From: a virus
DNA: 20,396 nucleotides
Virus record (IMG/VR): IMGVR_UViG_3300036792_000074
Location: 1 to 20,396 of that record
Strand: one strand, 5' to 3'
A program made the position numbers and the translations under genes. Within the stretch, counting starts at the first letter, position 1. Each line of letters begins with the position of its first letter. Under the pieces are notes generated by a model. The model was not told the origin of the DNA, made no database searches, and saw only the letters and a program-made list of their open reading frames with translations. Below, in pieces: positions 1 to 16,093 of the stretch.

Positions 1-863
1 TCTTCCTCGTCCTTAGCCTTATCCTTGGCTTCGGCTTCCTTCTTTTTGCGCTCTTCCTCTTCCTCTTCGTCCTTCGCCTTGTCTTTGGCGAGTTTATCGA
101 GGGTGGCGGCGATTTTGGCGATGGAGTCCTTCGTTTCTTTCTTGAACTTTTCGTTCTCCTCGTCCCTGGCTTTGTCTTCCGCAGCCTTTTTCTTCTTTTC
201 CGCTTCCTCTTCGTCCTCATCTTTGGCGCGTGCGTCCAGGACCGCCCGAGTGATAGCGGCCTCATCCTTTGAAGCGATCGCTGCTTGCAGACGATCCCAG
301 ATCTTCGACATGATGTTCTCCTTGGGGTTGATGGCGTTGTCTCTGAAGGCGCAACGCGAGCCGCAACGTCCCGCCTCGACTAGCGCCAAATGATTGATGT
401 AGTAGTTTCTTTGGTCTCCGCGACCGGGACCGGTCTGGAAATAGTCAGCGTCGTACCCGAGCGATACTTCGCGCATGCCGCTGTCGATCTCGGTGATCGC
501 TTCCGGAGTCGTGACGAATATATCGGCGACACACTCGTCGCGCTGTTCGCCGGTACCGCGACGCGCATTGACCATGAACCCGTTCGACAGAGTGCGCCAA
601 TTAGCCGGCGTCACATCATCGTCGGGGTGCTCGATCACGAGCGACTTCCCGTTGCAGCTATCGAGCGCTTCCTGCCGGAAGACTTCTTCCGGCGTTCGCG
701 TGATATGAATCAGCCCATCAGGACCGGGCTCAATGCCGGTGCCCTCATCGGGACCGTAGACCTGCTCGCCGATACGCGAGATCGATACGTTGCGGAAGAC
801 AGTAAAGCCTTCCTTGGTCACTTCGCGATTCGGGCCAAGTTTGAGAATTGTCTGGAACTTCAT
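1..863 (-). CDS. DUF2213 prohead-protease-like protein with charged scaffold-like tail (3' end outside window)
   Basis: The reading frame is open from ATG at 863 to the left edge (287 codons), so the C-terminus is missing. Residues 1-184 match the DUF2213 pattern found next to gpF-like genes in phage head operons: VIEHPDDDVTP, then REVSLGYDADY, then NHLALVEAGRCG. The His of EHP and the Ser of SLGY sit where HK97-type prohead proteases carry catalytic residues; the protease role is inferred from family and position. From residue 185 the protein changes to an almost pure Lys/Glu/Asp/Ala helix, which resembles a capsid scaffold. The start overlaps the stop of the gpF-like gene by four bases (ATGA), which suggests coupled translation. 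The family call is firm; cleavage activity is not shown. Confidence 0.85.
   Translation of the reverse strand, partial: MKFQTILKLGPNREVTKEGFTVFRNVSISRIGEQVYGPDEGTGIEPGPDGLIHITRTPEEVFRQEALDSCNGKSLVIEHPDDDVTPANWRTLSNGFMVNARRGTGEQRDECVADIFVTTPEAITEIDSGMREVSLGYDADYFQTGPGRGDQRNYYINHLALVEAGRCGSRCAFRDNAINPKENIMSKIWDRLQAAIASKDEAAITRAVLDARAKDEDEEEAEKKKKAAEDKARDEENEKFKKETKDSIAKIAATLDKLAKDKAKDEEEEEERKKKEAEAKDKAKDEE
309..323 (-). promoter_or_regulatory. Internal ribosome-binding site and in-frame ATG inside the DUF2213 gene
   Basis: On the minus strand AAGGAG (323-318) stands six bases before an ATG (311-309) in the same frame as the long DUF2213 gene. This ATG is codon 185, where the globular part ends and the Lys/Glu-rich part begins (MSKIWDRLQAAIASKDE). 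The site could start a second, shorter scaffold protein nested in the protease gene. That use is inferred; the motif and spacing are seen directly. Confidence 0.5.
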
Positions 864-2560: not shown

Positions 2561-4012
2561 CTAAGCGGGCTCGTCGCCCGGCTCCGGCTTCGCTGCGGCG
2601 TTGGGGTTGGGTGGCTGGGGCAGGTCTTCGCTCATCGCTTCGGCTTTGGGCATGATCTCGTCGCTGGCCGCGTTGATGATCTCGTTATCGATTGCCTCCC
2701 AGCGACCGGTCTTGCGCGATGAATGCTGGAGAGCTTGCAGTGCTGTCTTGTCCGAGATAATGCCGCTGGAGTGAACTTCCATCACGGTCGCGGTATCCTT
2801 CGCCGCGACTTCAGCCTTCTCCGGCTCGCTCATCTGCCACAGGGGTTTGAACGACAGCGAGAAGCCTTTTTGGATCTTGATTCGAAGGCTCGCCGCCAGG
2901 CAGCGGTATATCTTTGTCGCCATGACAAGCAGGTGAGCGATCTGCCGCTGCTTGATACCGTCATAGTAAGTCTTCAGTTCCGATTCGCCAGCCGAATTAA
3001 GCCCGGCCGGCGACTGACCAAGCAGCCTCACGAGCGGGATCTGGTAAGCACCTGAGATATGCTGCGCAAGCTGCAACAACACGTCGGAAATGCCGGTGAA
3101 GTTTGTCGCCTGCGTTGTCACCATGTCGTCTTCGGCGTCGATGAGGCTGATTCCCTCATTCGAGGCGAACAGGCGCATGTTGGCGACCATTTCCATCAGG
3201 CCCTTGAGAGCCTGTGGACCGCCAAGTCCAGAGACTACCTTGCGATAATCCTTGATCTTGAAGTAGCGCAGATAGGACTTATGGACCTGCTGACTGGCTC
3301 CGGTCGTTGCAGCGTCGAAGGACGTAACGCGATCCCATGGACGCTCAAGGACTGACATGCCCCAGAGGTTCTCAACCTGTGCCTGCTGATAAGGCAGCTC
3401 GTCGCCAAGCAACCGCAGGCACCGGGAGTAATGCACCTTCTGACCACGCAACGCCGGCGCATTGATCTCGACGGTGTAAAACTTCGGGCAGCCGATGTCC
3501 GGGCCCATCTCGGTGACCAGATCGTTCAGGCTCGGCGAGACCATCCAGCGGTCAAGGACGAGAAGGCCTTTGAACTGATCCGGGCCAACGGTGTCGAGGC
3601 GCAGCGGCCTCGACATATCCTGCCCATCGATCAACATGACACAGATAGCGCCGCCATACAGGCGAGACCACTTGATCGTTTGATTGATGCGCTCCCAGAC
3701 TTTGAGCTGGATTGCCAACTCGTCGATCTGCTTGACTTCATCGGGCTCGAGCTGACCCTGCAGGTCAACCCCTTCGCGCGTCATATCGTCGGCGATCACA
3801 TCGACGGCGACGCCAGCAACCCACGAGCCGCGATAGGCCCACTCCAACTCGGTCCGTTGCCGAGTCATAGGGTTGAAGCCGTAGTGATTGAAGGTGCTCA
3901 GATTCTGAGTACCCATCCCGAGGCCGAGCGCGAAGTTCTGAAAGGAATCGCGCGCCTTGGAGTCTTGCGTCTTCGCTTTGCGGACAGAGGCCTTGATGCT
4001 GACTTTGGACAT
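2561..4012 (-). CDS. Phage portal protein, DUF1073 family
   Basis: The 483-residue product forms the ring at the head vertex through which DNA enters and leaves. Family marks are the early segment RTELEWAYRGSWVAGVAVDV (residues 53-72), EKLW-type helices, YRKVVSGLGG near the middle, and the strongly conserved IPLVRLLGQSPAGLNSAGE plus ELKTYYD block at about residues 325-350. The C-terminus ends in a Pro/Glu-rich tail. Start ATG 4012 has AAGG just upstream and follows the terminase stop by six bases. DUF1073 proteins are sometimes labelled anti-CBASS Acb1 family in databases; no extra phosphoesterase domain is fused here, so portal is the right reading. Confidence 0.92.
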   Translation of the reverse strand: MSKVSIKASVRKAKTQDSKARDSFQNFALGLGMGTQNLSTFNHYGFNPMTRQRTELEWAYRGSWVAGVAVDVIADDMTREGVDLQGQLEPDEVKQIDELAIQLKVWERINQTIKWSRLYGGAICVMLIDGQDMSRPLRLDTVGPDQFKGLLVLDRWMVSPSLNDLVTEMGPDIGCPKFYTVEINAPALRGQKVHYSRCLRLLGDELPYQQAQVENLWGMSVLERPWDRVTSFDAATTGASQQVHKSYLRYFKIKDYRKVVSGLGGPQALKGLMEMVANMRLFASNEGISLIDAEDDMVTTQATNFTGISDVLLQLAQHISGAYQIPLVRLLGQSPAGLNSAGESELKTYYDGIKQRQIAHLLVMATKIYRCLAASLRIKIQKGFSLSFKPLWQMSEPEKAEVAAKDTATVMEVHSSGIISDKTALQALQHSSRKTGRWEAIDNEIINAASDEIMPKAEAMSEDLPQPPNPNAAAKPEPGDEPA

Positions 4013-4018
4013 TGGACC

Positions 4019-5533
4019 TTATCCGCGACCGAGGGCCGCCCAGGCTGAGAGATCGTAGTTCTGACGCCACCAGTTGATGGCCTGCGTCATCGCATCGACG
4101 TCGTCGTCATGCGACCCGTTGGGGAACGCCGCGGCTTCGTCGATCATTTCCTGCGCGTTGGCTTCGTTGGTGTCGTCGGGCAGATAGACGCCGCCAGCTT
4201 CGACGGTGGGCTGCGCGGCCCAGGCGCGTGCTTCTTTGCCGCCTTCTGGGTTGATGGCGATTACACCCGGAACTTCGCGCCCCAACTCCTCGATGACAGC
4301 CGATCCGTTGGCCTTGTCTTCGATGATGGTTGCTGACGGCTTGAACTCGTCCCACAACACCCGGACAGAAGCTTTCGTCGCCGTAAAGCCCATCTTGTCG
4401 TGACGACGGGCGAGCAGATAAATACGGGGGCCACAGAACCCGTAAACATGAATGGCTACGTAGTCGGAATCGCTGACAGCCTTGAATGTGCAGTCGACCG
4501 AGATGATGACCATGTCCAGCGCGGGAAGTTCCTCGCGGGTGTAACGTCGCCAGTACTGCCGCTTGAACATTCCGCCTTCGGCGGGAGCGGGACGCTGCTG
4601 GTGCTGACCGGCATAGTCGTAACTGCCGAGGTCTTTCTTGGCTTGCCGGATGACTTCCGCGGTGAACAACTCTGGGAAGAGCAGTTCCCCATCAACTGTG
4701 CGCTTGTCTGTAAAGCCTATCTTTGTCGTTGCGCCGTGCTCTTTGCACCAGGCACAGCATTTGCGTTCCCGCTCGAACTCGGATGGCAGATTGAGGTGAA
4801 CATAATCCCCTGTCGCCAGCATGGCGCCGTAGGGATCTTCCTCATGCAGACGCTGGCCGATGACGACGCGCCAGCCTTTGCGCATGTCGTTAAAGCGCGA
4901 GGACATGGTGCTGATTGCCCAGTCCTTCGCGTAGTCTCGAGCGGCCTGCGAGTGCTTCTCGCTGGCGTTCAGGAGATCGTCGAAGATCTGTCCATCTGCA
5001 CGGAAGCCGGTTGCTTTACCGCCGACTGAAAGTGCGCGGCGCTCACCCGAGGTGGAGTTGCTTATCCAGTCCTCGTTCGTCTTTACCATCTCCCAGGCGG
5101 GAGAGAAGGTGTCCTGAAACCATTCCGACATCACCAGATCGCGCGTCCGGATCGAGTCGCGGATGGTGAGCTGCGATGCGTACGTCGCTGCGATGACCCG
5201 CGTCTGAGGATTGCGCGCCCATAGCCAGGCAGAGAACATCACGCTGGCGATGATCGACTTGGCGTACCCGGGCCCAATGTTGATCATCAGGAACCGGATC
5301 TGCTCTTCGGACACGGCTTGCAGATGCACAGCCAACGCGTCGATATGCCAGTTGTCAATCAGCTTCATCGCCGGATCGACAACCGACCAGGATGCGCGGA
5401 TGAAGGCGGCGAAATCACCCTTGAGGCGTTCGGCCTCAGCCTTCCGTCGCCTCCGTCTCTCCAGCTCCGCTTGAATCTTCGCCTTCAGCGCTTTGCGGAT
5501 CGTCAAGTTCTGCAGCGAGGGCGGCGAGCTCAT
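4019..5533 (-). CDS. terL: Terminase large subunit (ATPase and nuclease)
   Basis: The 504-residue motor protein pumps DNA into the prohead and cuts concatemers. The ATPase half shows a deviant Walker A, NIGPGYAKS, and a Walker B-like GQIFDDLLN. The nuclease half has SVDCTFKAVSDSDY, ATIIEDKANGSA and the late acidic HDDDVDAMTQA, as expected for an RNase H-like fold with Asp residues binding metal. The N-terminal segment around FAAFIRASWSVVDPAMKLID is typical of the family, so the start must lie upstream of it; ATG 5533 is the only ATG that fits. This makes the gene overlap the small subunit by 98 bases. The first 40 residues are very basic. Confidence 0.94.
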   Translation of the reverse strand: MSSPPSLQNLTIRKALKAKIQAELERRRRRKAEAERLKGDFAAFIRASWSVVDPAMKLIDNWHIDALAVHLQAVSEEQIRFLMINIGPGYAKSIIASVMFSAWLWARNPQTRVIAATYASQLTIRDSIRTRDLVMSEWFQDTFSPAWEMVKTNEDWISNSTSGERRALSVGGKATGFRADGQIFDDLLNASEKHSQAARDYAKDWAISTMSSRFNDMRKGWRVVIGQRLHEEDPYGAMLATGDYVHLNLPSEFERERKCCAWCKEHGATTKIGFTDKRTVDGELLFPELFTAEVIRQAKKDLGSYDYAGQHQQRPAPAEGGMFKRQYWRRYTREELPALDMVIISVDCTFKAVSDSDYVAIHVYGFCGPRIYLLARRHDKMGFTATKASVRVLWDEFKPSATIIEDKANGSAVIEELGREVPGVIAINPEGGKEARAWAAQPTVEAGGVYLPDDTNEANAQEMIDEAAAFPNGSHDDDVDAMTQAINWWRQNYDLSAWAALGRG

Positions 5534-8773: not shown

Positions 8774-8987
8774 CGCCACCCTCCGCAATCAGGATTTCGG
8801 TTATCACTTCGGCGAGATCGTCGATATCATCCGGCGGTGCCATCTCGCTATCGCAGTGCTGGCAATCGTGCGTTTCCATGCCGCAGGCGCAAGCATCACC
8901 GCCGCACAGGCACGGGACGACGCCGGTGTTGTGGCACACATCGCACCAGTTTTCGTCAGCGGGCTCAAATATCAGATTTTCGCTCAC
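8763..8987 (-). CDS. Cys-rich zinc-binding mini-protein (74 aa)
   Basis: The first 50 residues hold WCDVCHNTG, PCLCGG, ACACGME and DCQHC: eight Cys in CxxC or CxC pairs, similar to DnaJ-type zinc repeats. The last third is strongly acidic (PPDDIDDLAEVITE). The start is GTG 8987, sharing GTGA with the stop of the upstream gene and preceded by GAGG. The likely role is a zinc-stabilised protein-protein contact; no precise function is evident. Confidence 0.66.
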   Translation of the reverse strand: MSENLIFEPADENWCDVCHNTGVVPCLCGGDACACGMETHDCQHCDSEMAPPDDIDDLAEVITEILIAEGGDGA

Positions 8988-9230
8988 ACTTCCTCGCTCG
9001 GCTTCGTTCCCTGATAACTCGGGAACCGTCTCAACAACTCCGTCTCGCCATTACCGGTGCGCTCCATCCACTCCGGCGCCCATTGCCAGAACTCGACGAC
9101 CTGCTGGTTACGGCGTTGCGCAGCCTGCACCACGGCAGCATCTCGCCGTAATACATCGCGCACGTACTCGATGCGCTCGGCGATCTCGTCCGGTCGGGGA
9201 AAGAATTCCGCCCCAGGAGTGAGTCGCCAC

Positions 9231-10326
<1,096 letters not shown>

Positions 10327-10337
<11 letters not shown>

Positions 10338-13262: not shown

Positions 13263-15941
13263 TTAGGCGGTTGCTTCGTAATCGAGAAGGTCGAAGAGGG
13301 TAGGGATGTATGCCTTACGTTCGGCCTCTTCCGCATATCCCACGGCGTCGATGAAGTAACGCGGCGCCAGTTCCACCCCATACCCTTTGCGACCGAGCGA
13401 GACGGCGCGCATCGGCACAGTCCCGATGCCGGCGAAAGGGTCGAAGACGATCTCACCTTCCATCGAAAACTGATTGATTACGCGGTCCACCAGATCGAGT
13501 TGGAGAGGGCAGAGATGAGACTCGCGATTCGCCATTGATTGATTCAGGTTCAGCGTCCGCATACGGGTGATGTCGGTCCACACATCGTCGTGCCAACTTT
13601 GCGGCTGGAGGAGCATGAACGTCGCGGGTAGGCGGCTTCCAGCAATCTTGCAGGGGCATTTCCCGCACTTCCTATCGCCCGTGTGGATATGTCCGCACTC
13701 CTGGCAGGATTCGAGGCTCTCGCTTAACCCTACGTGGCGTTCGAAGTTATAGACTTGGCGCATCGAGTCCTGCCGGAACAGTTTGAATATCCGCTCGTGC
13801 GGGATTCCTTGAAGATCAGCCGGAGCAAGATAGCGATCACCGTTCGAGCGCATGAAGCCGTGGGCATCGATCTGCCAGCGTGATCGGGTATAGTTCGCCT
13901 TATCTTTGATGACCGGATCGTCGGCGTATCCATTGCTCGTGTCCGATGGCGGCTTGCGGAACAGGAGAAGATACTCGGGAAGCCCTGCGCCCATACGGCT
14001 GCCATCCTTGCATTGCTCCGTCCACCCGAGGCGATAGGTCTGATTGTTCTCGCGCACAACATCGGTGATGATGGTCTTGCGAGCCAGAAACCCGAACCCA
14101 TGCTTTTCGAAGGCCCGCGCGCAGTCATCGGAGAAACGGTAGACTGTCTGGAATCCCATGCCTGTCATGCCGCTTGGCGTGATGCGGTCCTTTACGTGGA
14201 TCGCTGCCACGCGGCCGGGTTTGAGGATGCGAAACAATTCCGGAATCAGATAGTCCATCTGCTGCCAGAAGTGCTCGTTATTCTCTGTATGCCCGAAGTC
14301 GCGGAAGCTTGGAGAATATTCGTACTGTTGGGAAAAAGGAATTGAAGTCAAGATCAGATCAACCGAGCGGCGCTCCATCGATCTTGTCTCCAGTACGCAA
14401 TCGTTGTTGACGACAACCCAGTTCTCGCCGCGCCGCTCAACGCGCTCCACTTCCATCTTGCGTACCGCCTCGGAAGCCAGCGCATTCGACCCCAAACCAT
14501 ACCTGCGGATAATCGCCGTCATGTTGGCGACGAGCTGCTTGTGGTTCTCCCACTTCTCTTCAAGGGAACGGCGAATCTCGCGTTCGGCTTCGGTGTAGAT
14601 GATGTCGATGCGGACAGGATGCTTCTGAAGAAAGCGGTGAATCCGGTGGCACGCCTGAATGAAGTCAAAGAACTTGTAGCCGACGCCGAGGAAGATGGCG
14701 TGATGCGACTGCTGCAGGTTAACCCCCGCGCCATACATGATCGGCTTGCTGACAAAAGCGCTCGTCTCGCGGTTGCGCCAGGAGTTCATCAGAGACTCGC
14801 GCTCTTCAATGTCTTGATTGCCATAGAGTGACGAGTATGGGATGCCGTACTCGGTCAGAAGCTTGTCGACGCCGGCCTGCTCGTCATTTAGATCACACCA
14901 GACGATGAACTGATCGTGGCCGTACAGGTCCTTATCAGTCGTGTCGATGATGGTCGCCAGCTCTTGCAGGCGGCGCGGCAGGCTGTCGCGCTTTTCGTGC
15001 GCGGCCGAGCTGAGACCGATGGCGGAGTTGCGCAGCAATCTTCCCTGCCCGCTTGGATCCATGCCGGCATTCGCATGATCCGATGCGACCTCGTGCCAGT
15101 AAACCTTCATCTCCGGCATCTCGTAGCCGGTGGCGTCGAAGCCAAGGTCGGCTGGGCTTTGCAGGAATACGGCCCACGTCGAGCACCAGAGCCAGAAGTC
15201 CTGTTCGCGGCTGGGCATCAGTGTCAGTTCGTCGGCGTGCTCGGAATTGCGCTTGAAGAACTTAGTCTTCGCGGCCGAGACGTCCATCGCGTCGAGAAAT
15301 GCGGAATAGGCGAGCAGTTCGATGAAGTCATTCGGCGAGGGGGTCGCCGTGGCAACGAAGCGATATGTGCCGCTGCCTTCGAAATAACCCATCAGCTTCC
15401 GGAATGTTTTCGTGCCTCCGAAGCCACGCAGGCAGGCCGCCTCATCAAGAGACACCGCCGTGAATTCGCGCGGGTCAAGTTTGCCGTCGCGAACCGTCTC
15501 ATAGTTCGTGATGTAGATACGCTTGCGCCTCGCCGCGCATTCGGGGCAGCCCATGTAGCTTGTCGAGCTACAAGCTACCTCGCCAGTGTCATCGCAAAAG
15601 CTGCAATGCTCCTCGCACTCCTCGATTGACCGGATGAACCTTAAGTCAATGCCGAGCATCTTGGCATCGCGCATAAACTCTTGCCGTACCCCAAGCGGAG
15701 CAACGATCAGACAGCGGCCGCCGAGCTTCTCTCCGAGAAGGCGCGTGATCTCCAACTGCATCACACTCTTGCCCAATCCGAAGGCGGCAAATATTGCAGC
15801 CCGGCCACGCTTGACGGCCCACTTAACAATCGCGCGCTGATGGGGCTTGAGGATGGGGTTGATGTCGGCATCGGTGATATCGATGCCAATGTCGGGAGTA
15901 GAGAGCACTTTCGCTCGCAGAAAATCTTCGTAACTTACCAT
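13263..15941 (-). CDS. Fusion of SF2 helicase and beta-class DNA methyltransferase (892 aa)
   Basis: N-terminal helicase: LKPHQR (31-36), Walker A FGLGKS (54-59), SLDEAA (164-169), TATP (198-201) and a C-terminal lobe with YGAGVNLQQS and QACHRIHRF. A Cys cluster (residues 113-135) interrupts the first lobe. The methyltransferase follows: motif IV DLILTSIPF (528-536) and, far behind it, motif I FDPFAGIGT (833-841), the beta order IV then I used by N4/N6 amino-methyltransferases. SIPF replaces the usual SPPY. A second Cys cluster lies at 746-764. The start ATG 15941 has GGGGAGG six bases ahead. Such fusions occur in other phages; likely role is modification of phage DNA against host restriction, with the helicase aiding site access. 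Confidence 0.9.
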   Translation of the reverse strand: MVSYEDFLRAKVLSTPDIGIDITDADINPILKPHQRAIVKWAVKRGRAAIFAAFGLGKSVMQLEITRLLGEKLGGRCLIVAPLGVRQEFMRDAKMLGIDLRFIRSIEECEEHCSFCDDTGEVACSSTSYMGCPECAARRKRIYITNYETVRDGKLDPREFTAVSLDEAACLRGFGGTKTFRKLMGYFEGSGTYRFVATATPSPNDFIELLAYSAFLDAMDVSAAKTKFFKRNSEHADELTLMPSREQDFWLWCSTWAVFLQSPADLGFDATGYEMPEMKVYWHEVASDHANAGMDPSGQGRLLRNSAIGLSSAAHEKRDSLPRRLQELATIIDTTDKDLYGHDQFIVWCDLNDEQAGVDKLLTEYGIPYSSLYGNQDIEERESLMNSWRNRETSAFVSKPIMYGAGVNLQQSHHAIFLGVGYKFFDFIQACHRIHRFLQKHPVRIDIIYTEAEREIRRSLEEKWENHKQLVANMTAIIRRYGLGSNALASEAVRKMEVERVERRGENWVVVNNDCVLETRSMERRSVDLILTSIPFSQQYEYSPSFRDFGHTENNEHFWQQMDYLIPELFRILKPGRVAAIHVKDRITPSGMTGMGFQTVYRFSDDCARAFEKHGFGFLARKTIITDVVRENNQTYRLGWTEQCKDGSRMGAGLPEYLLLFRKPPSDTSNGYADDPVIKDKANYTRSRWQIDAHGFMRSNGDRYLAPADLQGIPHERIFKLFRQDSMRQVYNFERHVGLSESLESCQECGHIHTGDRKCGKCPCKIAGSRLPATFMLLQPQSWHDDVWTDITRMRTLNLNQSMANRESHLCPLQLDLVDRVINQFSMEGEIVFDPFAGIGTVPMRAVSLGRKGYGVELAPRYFIDAVGYAEEAERKAYIPTLFDLLDYEATA

Positions 15942-16093
15942 AACCAACCTCCCCGCACGGCGATGCGAAACACGCTGATCCAGGCAGCAATCGCGAGCGC
16001 GCATAACACAACAATCCAGACGTTAAGCTTGCGTTCGCTGCGATCAAGCGAGCAGCGGCACATATAGAGCGGATGGGGGCAGCGGTGTCTCAT
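15935..16093 (-). CDS. Small single-span membrane protein with Cys-rich N-terminus (52 aa)
   Basis: ATG 16093 has AGAGGA four bases ahead, which is better than a longer in-frame form. The product starts RHRCPHPLYMCRCSLDRSER and then has one membrane segment, VWIVVLCALAIAAWISVF, ending in GGWLW. The Cys/His part could bind metal on the cytoplasmic side. It overlaps the helicase-methyltransferase start by seven bases. Unknown role; small early membrane proteins in phages often alter host envelope or block superinfection. Confidence 0.58.
   Translation of the reverse strand: MRHRCPHPLYMCRCSLDRSERKLNVWIVVLCALAIAAWISVFRIAVRGGWLW

Follow-up and report, generated by a model that had tools for sequence, protein, structure and literature searches.

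Does one reading frame of this phage encode both a capsid-maturation protease and, from an internal start, the scaffold of its capsid? The window analysed here, meaning the whole stretch of DNA, is a complete IMG/VR record of 20,396 bases, and a DUF2213 protease-scaffold gene lies at its edge (1–863, minus strand). The window edge cuts the gene and, since the window is the whole record, the remaining part cannot be read. As a preliminary description of this DNA had it, the frame that begins with the ATG at 863–861 stays open past 311, with no stop through the edge (287 codons read), and carries an in-frame ATG at 311–309 (codon 185 of the long frame) with AAGGAG at 323–318 and a 6-nt spacer between them. 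The duplex energy of this internal Shine–Dalgarno sequence is −8.5 kcal/mol; the ribosome-binding site of the full-length protein, GGAG at 871–874 on the same strand (7-nt spacer), reaches −5.6. The putative nested scaffold gene (1–311, minus strand) keeps the frame of the protease gene and is likewise cut by the edge. In the preliminary description the ATG stood exactly where the DUF2213 part gives way to a Lys/Glu-rich helix. The boundary holds, the ATG lying 10 codons past the domain (residues 13–175), but the composition does not: the Lys/Glu-rich stretch begins only at about residue 212, and the residues right after the ATG (SKIWDRLQAAIASKDEAAITRAVLDAR) form an ordinary amphipathic segment. 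The motif taken by itself in the window is weak evidence, no rarer than chance, with two occurrences of AAGGAG-N4–9-ATG against 1.0 expected; only its conservation in homologues lifts the internal start far above chance.

We consider it highly probable that one frame gives two products here, a protease-scaffold protein from 863 and the scaffold alone from 311. Starting at 863, ribosomes would make the long protein, an N-terminal capsid-maturation protease followed by a helical scaffold at the C terminus; starting at 311, with the internal Shine–Dalgarno sequence, they would make only the scaffold half, and probably an excess of it, given that the internal ribosome site is the stronger. The scaffold domain common to both would build the procapsid and bring the minority of protease-fused copies inside, and these would then cleave the scaffold and the capsid proteins ahead of DNA packaging. 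Comparison with relatives strongly supports this nested-scaffold reading through a conserved start and Shine–Dalgarno sequence, selection on codons, a predicted protease fold, a domain boundary and genes that are split in some relatives; from it we infer that the window phage makes both products, their ratio, the scaffold function of the window copy and the cleavages.

The surroundings are those of a head-gene cluster. Upstream of the protease-scaffold gene, all on the minus strand, lie genes for a Mu F-like head morphogenesis protein (860–1678; Pfam PF04233), which overlaps the protease start by ATGA, a portal protein (Phage_portal_3/DUF1073; 2561–4012; PF06381) and the terminase large subunit (4019–5533; PF17289, PHROG 38). 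The closest homologue (L016) is 60% identical to the window protein over the aligned part. In ten full-length relatives the protease-scaffold product has 400–484 aa; a single gene for a protein of ~160–200 aa comes next and, where the record extends that far, the major capsid gene after it. These ten, read in context, have no separate scaffold gene between the protease and capsid genes, and an in-frame nested start is annotated in none of them. Elsewhere in the window, the minus-strand ORF at 8984–9523 probably starts at ATG 9478, after AAGGAGG, rather than at the upstream ATG; positions 9231–10337 encode a 368-aa protein with a Glu-Pro repeat run whose sole Pfam match is an acidic repeat model below cut-off; and a 913-aa protein (13263–16004) combines a helicase C-terminal domain with an N6/N4 DNA methylase domain.

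The predicted protease and scaffold halves

The DUF2213 domain (Pfam PF09979; 339–827, minus strand) is matched with an E value of 9e-40, scoring 136.8 bits where the cut-off is 22. An AlphaFold2 model of the window protein has a pLDDT of ~96 over residues 1–170, a low-confidence boundary at 171–190 and helices beyond. Aligned by VIA-align, the front half of this model superimposes on T4 gp21 with a Z score of 10.8 (2.9 Å over 131 residues), and herpesvirus proteases occupy ranks 2–34 (Z 5.4–8.5). A Foldseek search of the PDB with the model returned no significant match, and the predicted T4 gp21/herpesvirus-assemblin fold, that of a predicted serine protease, rests on VIA-align. Three residues, invariant in an alignment of 51 sequences, are proposed to be catalytic: His79 (codon at 627–629), the putative nucleophile Ser134 in the motif VSLGY (462–464) and, as the third member, His158 (390–392), all encoded on the minus strand. 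We take their order and spacing to be like those of the herpesvirus Ser-His-His triad. Pfam gives only DUF2213 for the window protein at E values up to 0.1, with no S49 peptidase domain, and NCBIfam has no model for it.

The rear half is very probably, on its own, a temporary internal scaffold for capsid building. The scaffold of the closest homologue is modelled as all helical. The family profile matches gp24 of Pa193 (PDB 9b40; E 2e-10), and the front half of gp24 matches the protease family. In the structural work on Pa193, gp24 residues 286–326 form a helical pentamer in the mature head, beneath its five-fold vertices; that work calls gp24 no more than a putative scaffold, and the word 'protease' is absent from it (PMC11042391). 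This C-terminal fragment, which stays in the mature virion, is what would favour a reading in which the short product is made but, instead of being a scaffold, regulates the protease or is an internal protein of the head. We regard that as unlikely: a retained remnant is compatible with scaffold and non-scaffold readings alike, whereas a scaffold fits the position and size of the short product, its helical composition and the finding, in the relatives read in context, of no other candidate between the protease and capsid genes.

In L006–L015 and L016–L175, TGD/TKD motifs recur in the scaffold halves, which also have a conserved C-terminal motif resembling IN..NR.FW. The repeats are possibly cleavage sites and the C-terminal motif possibly binds the coat protein; by eye, no clear counterpart of TGD/TKD was found at capsid N-termini.

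Conservation of the internal start

A search of viral contigs with the single protein gave four distant loci only. Alignment queries worked better, and the 171 loci of the homologue set were reduced to 68 representatives at 70% identity. Every representative has an in-frame start codon at the domain boundary (66 ATG and two GTG, the latter in L037 and L075), 12–25 codons past a GRCG motif, and in 66 of the 68 the Shine–Dalgarno duplex energy at this junction start is −4.4 kcal/mol or lower. The median is −6.6 at junction starts versus −2.4 at 504 other in-frame ATGs, 17% of which reach −4.4 kcal/mol; among the other 16-codon windows of these genes, 4.8% contain an ATG with a comparable Shine–Dalgarno sequence. 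Domain and start are joined by a linker that varies in length and comes in 64 distinct sequences, and the start is nonetheless kept. From it, the nested scaffolds of the relatives would measure 207–367 aa (median 254).

Fresh searches were run with distant members in three groups, with narrower alignments as queries. The preliminary description had proposed looking in homologues for the internal ATG and its ribosome-binding site, and the outcome is mostly in favour of its reading. Besides the 66 of 68 close representatives, both are present in 18/18 sequences of the Rhizobium/Acinetobacter type and 26/29 of the Vibrio/Klebsiella type; the exception is a Chaseviridae-type clade (L349–L373), in which two of 13 representatives have the internal start and the other 11 a fused gene without it. 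The DUF2213 domain thus does not force the motif, since this clade mostly goes without it, and the family can do without the short product, since the clade keeps the fusion without the start. One distant member, L259, has GTG at the position where the similar L226 has ATG. An internal ATG also stands at codon 182 of the Pbunavirus SN gene (L191:1501–2895), a relative of Pa193 gp24, and its Shine–Dalgarno energy is −6.1. By comparison of these sequences, the internal start is a real and conserved feature that is widespread and unannotated in the relatives' records inspected.

In three Clostridia-type phages the DUF2213 protease and the scaffold are two separate genes (L186:2477–3720; L374:2001–3238; L379:2001–3294). 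The protease ends in a stop codon, and the scaffold gene starts ~15 nt later with GGAGG and an ATG or TTG (TTG in two). Both genes of L186 and the scaffold gene of L374 match PHROG 16985, a single profile of the fused form, the protease at its front and the scaffolds at its rear. A further profile comparison (A3 versus A2) was set aside, as both alignments contain the same sequences.

Codon choice at the junction favours the Shine–Dalgarno sequence beyond what the protein needs, as judged by resampling the synonymous codons upstream of the start, with 499 other Met codons as the control. The combined p-value across the representatives is 2e-8, a figure that overstates independence because the 68 have common ancestry, and the control Met codons show no excess; for the window sequence alone p is 0.34, short of significance. 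In the junction Gly-Asp, Gly is encoded by GGA in 58% of cases, compared with 11% for other Gly codons. The mRNA at the junction is, on average, less structured than 85% of positions in the same gene. The internal Shine–Dalgarno sequence is stronger than that of the estimated long-protein start in 56 of the 68 representatives, a comparison that gives only a trend because the long start was chosen by a heuristic. Scored in the same way, the known nested starts of lambda nu3 and Mu Z give −6.4 and −7.4.

These data bear on two further explanations. One is that the fusion is the sole product: the scaffold would act within it and be freed by self-cleavage near the junction, and the ATG with its AAGGAG would be incidental. 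Such an arrangement exists in P2, whose gpO works as a fused protease-scaffold with the protease in residues 1–141 and the scaffold in residues 195–284 of one protein; in contrast to the gene described here, that work reports no nested start for gpO, whose scaffold domain belongs to the fusion (PMC7552001). The Chaseviridae-type clade, too, has the fusion without the internal start, and its DUF2213 genes may rely on fusion alone. We nevertheless think this explanation quite unlikely, as it leaves unaccounted for the conservation of start and Shine–Dalgarno sequence across the 64 linkers, the GTG replacements and the codon bias. The other, that the junction Met and Gly-Asp/Lys-Glu are conserved for the protein's sake with the Shine–Dalgarno sequence as a by-product of their codons, can appeal to the IGDK(E) common to many members, whose codons readily contain GGAG or AAGGA, and to a synonymous test that is flat for some sequences, but it is very improbable and largely refuted by the GGA usage, by the combined synonymous excess and its clean control, by linkers that lack GD and still keep the Shine–Dalgarno sequence, and by the Met-to-Val replacements, which use the GTG codon in 3/3 cases (L037, L075, L259).

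Known systems and implications

The preliminary description had likened the two-product arrangement to lambda C/Nu3. The likeness stands for the logic and fails for the kinship. In both, the start of a scaffold lies within the gene for the capsid protease and in its frame, apparently with a Shine–Dalgarno sequence of its own and of similar strength, and the gene order is portal, protease/scaffold, small head protein, capsid. Lambda C, however, is annotated as an S49 peptidase, whereas the DUF2213 protease of the window has the predicted T4 gp21/assemblin fold; since the window protein has no S49 match, it would work like C/Nu3 from outside that protease family.

In herpesviruses, UL26/UL26.5 provide the scaffold in two forms from one frame: fused to an assemblin-fold protease, and by itself as a short product with a transcript of its own. 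The herpesvirus proteases align with the DUF2213 model; the difference is that the short product would here arise by internal initiation of translation. On balance we lean towards the view that DUF2213-family tailed phages use the herpesvirus plan, with an assemblin-fold protease-scaffold fusion and an excess of scaffold supplied by internal initiation and not by a second transcript.

Mu I/Z and the Mu-like phage PaMx73 also have a scaffold start internal to the protease gene (Mu record; PMC4378225), but Mu I/Z has, as far as seen, no DUF2213 match. Pa193 gp24 is a homologue of the window protein with its rear half inside the head, and the SN gene related to it shares the internal ATG. A literature search for nested protease/scaffold starts found only the Mu-like cases, which is no proof that the present one is unpublished. 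The nested logic itself is already known; what is new here is the combination of lambda C/Nu3-like nesting with a protease of the T4/herpesvirus type.

DUF2213, a domain of unknown function in Pfam, is by this prediction placed among the T4/herpesvirus capsid proteases. Transposon data had led to its being reported as an essential domain of the Burkholderia gene BCAM1066 (PMC8770471), and, with DUF2213 resembling a phage capsid protease, that interpretation should be reconsidered. The nested start points to a scaffold gene that has gone unannotated across many phages and prophages, among them the Pbunavirus group, of which the therapeutic phage Pa193 is a member. It would explain the apparent absence of a scaffold gene from such genomes and mark where the protease ends. 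Nested, split and fused-only genes would form a natural series for studying how the scaffold-to-protease ratio is set in a virus. If the herpesvirus plan does apply, the split genes and the clade lacking the start would each be a different solution derived from a single ancestral module, and the relation between phage and herpesvirus scaffolding would become testable.
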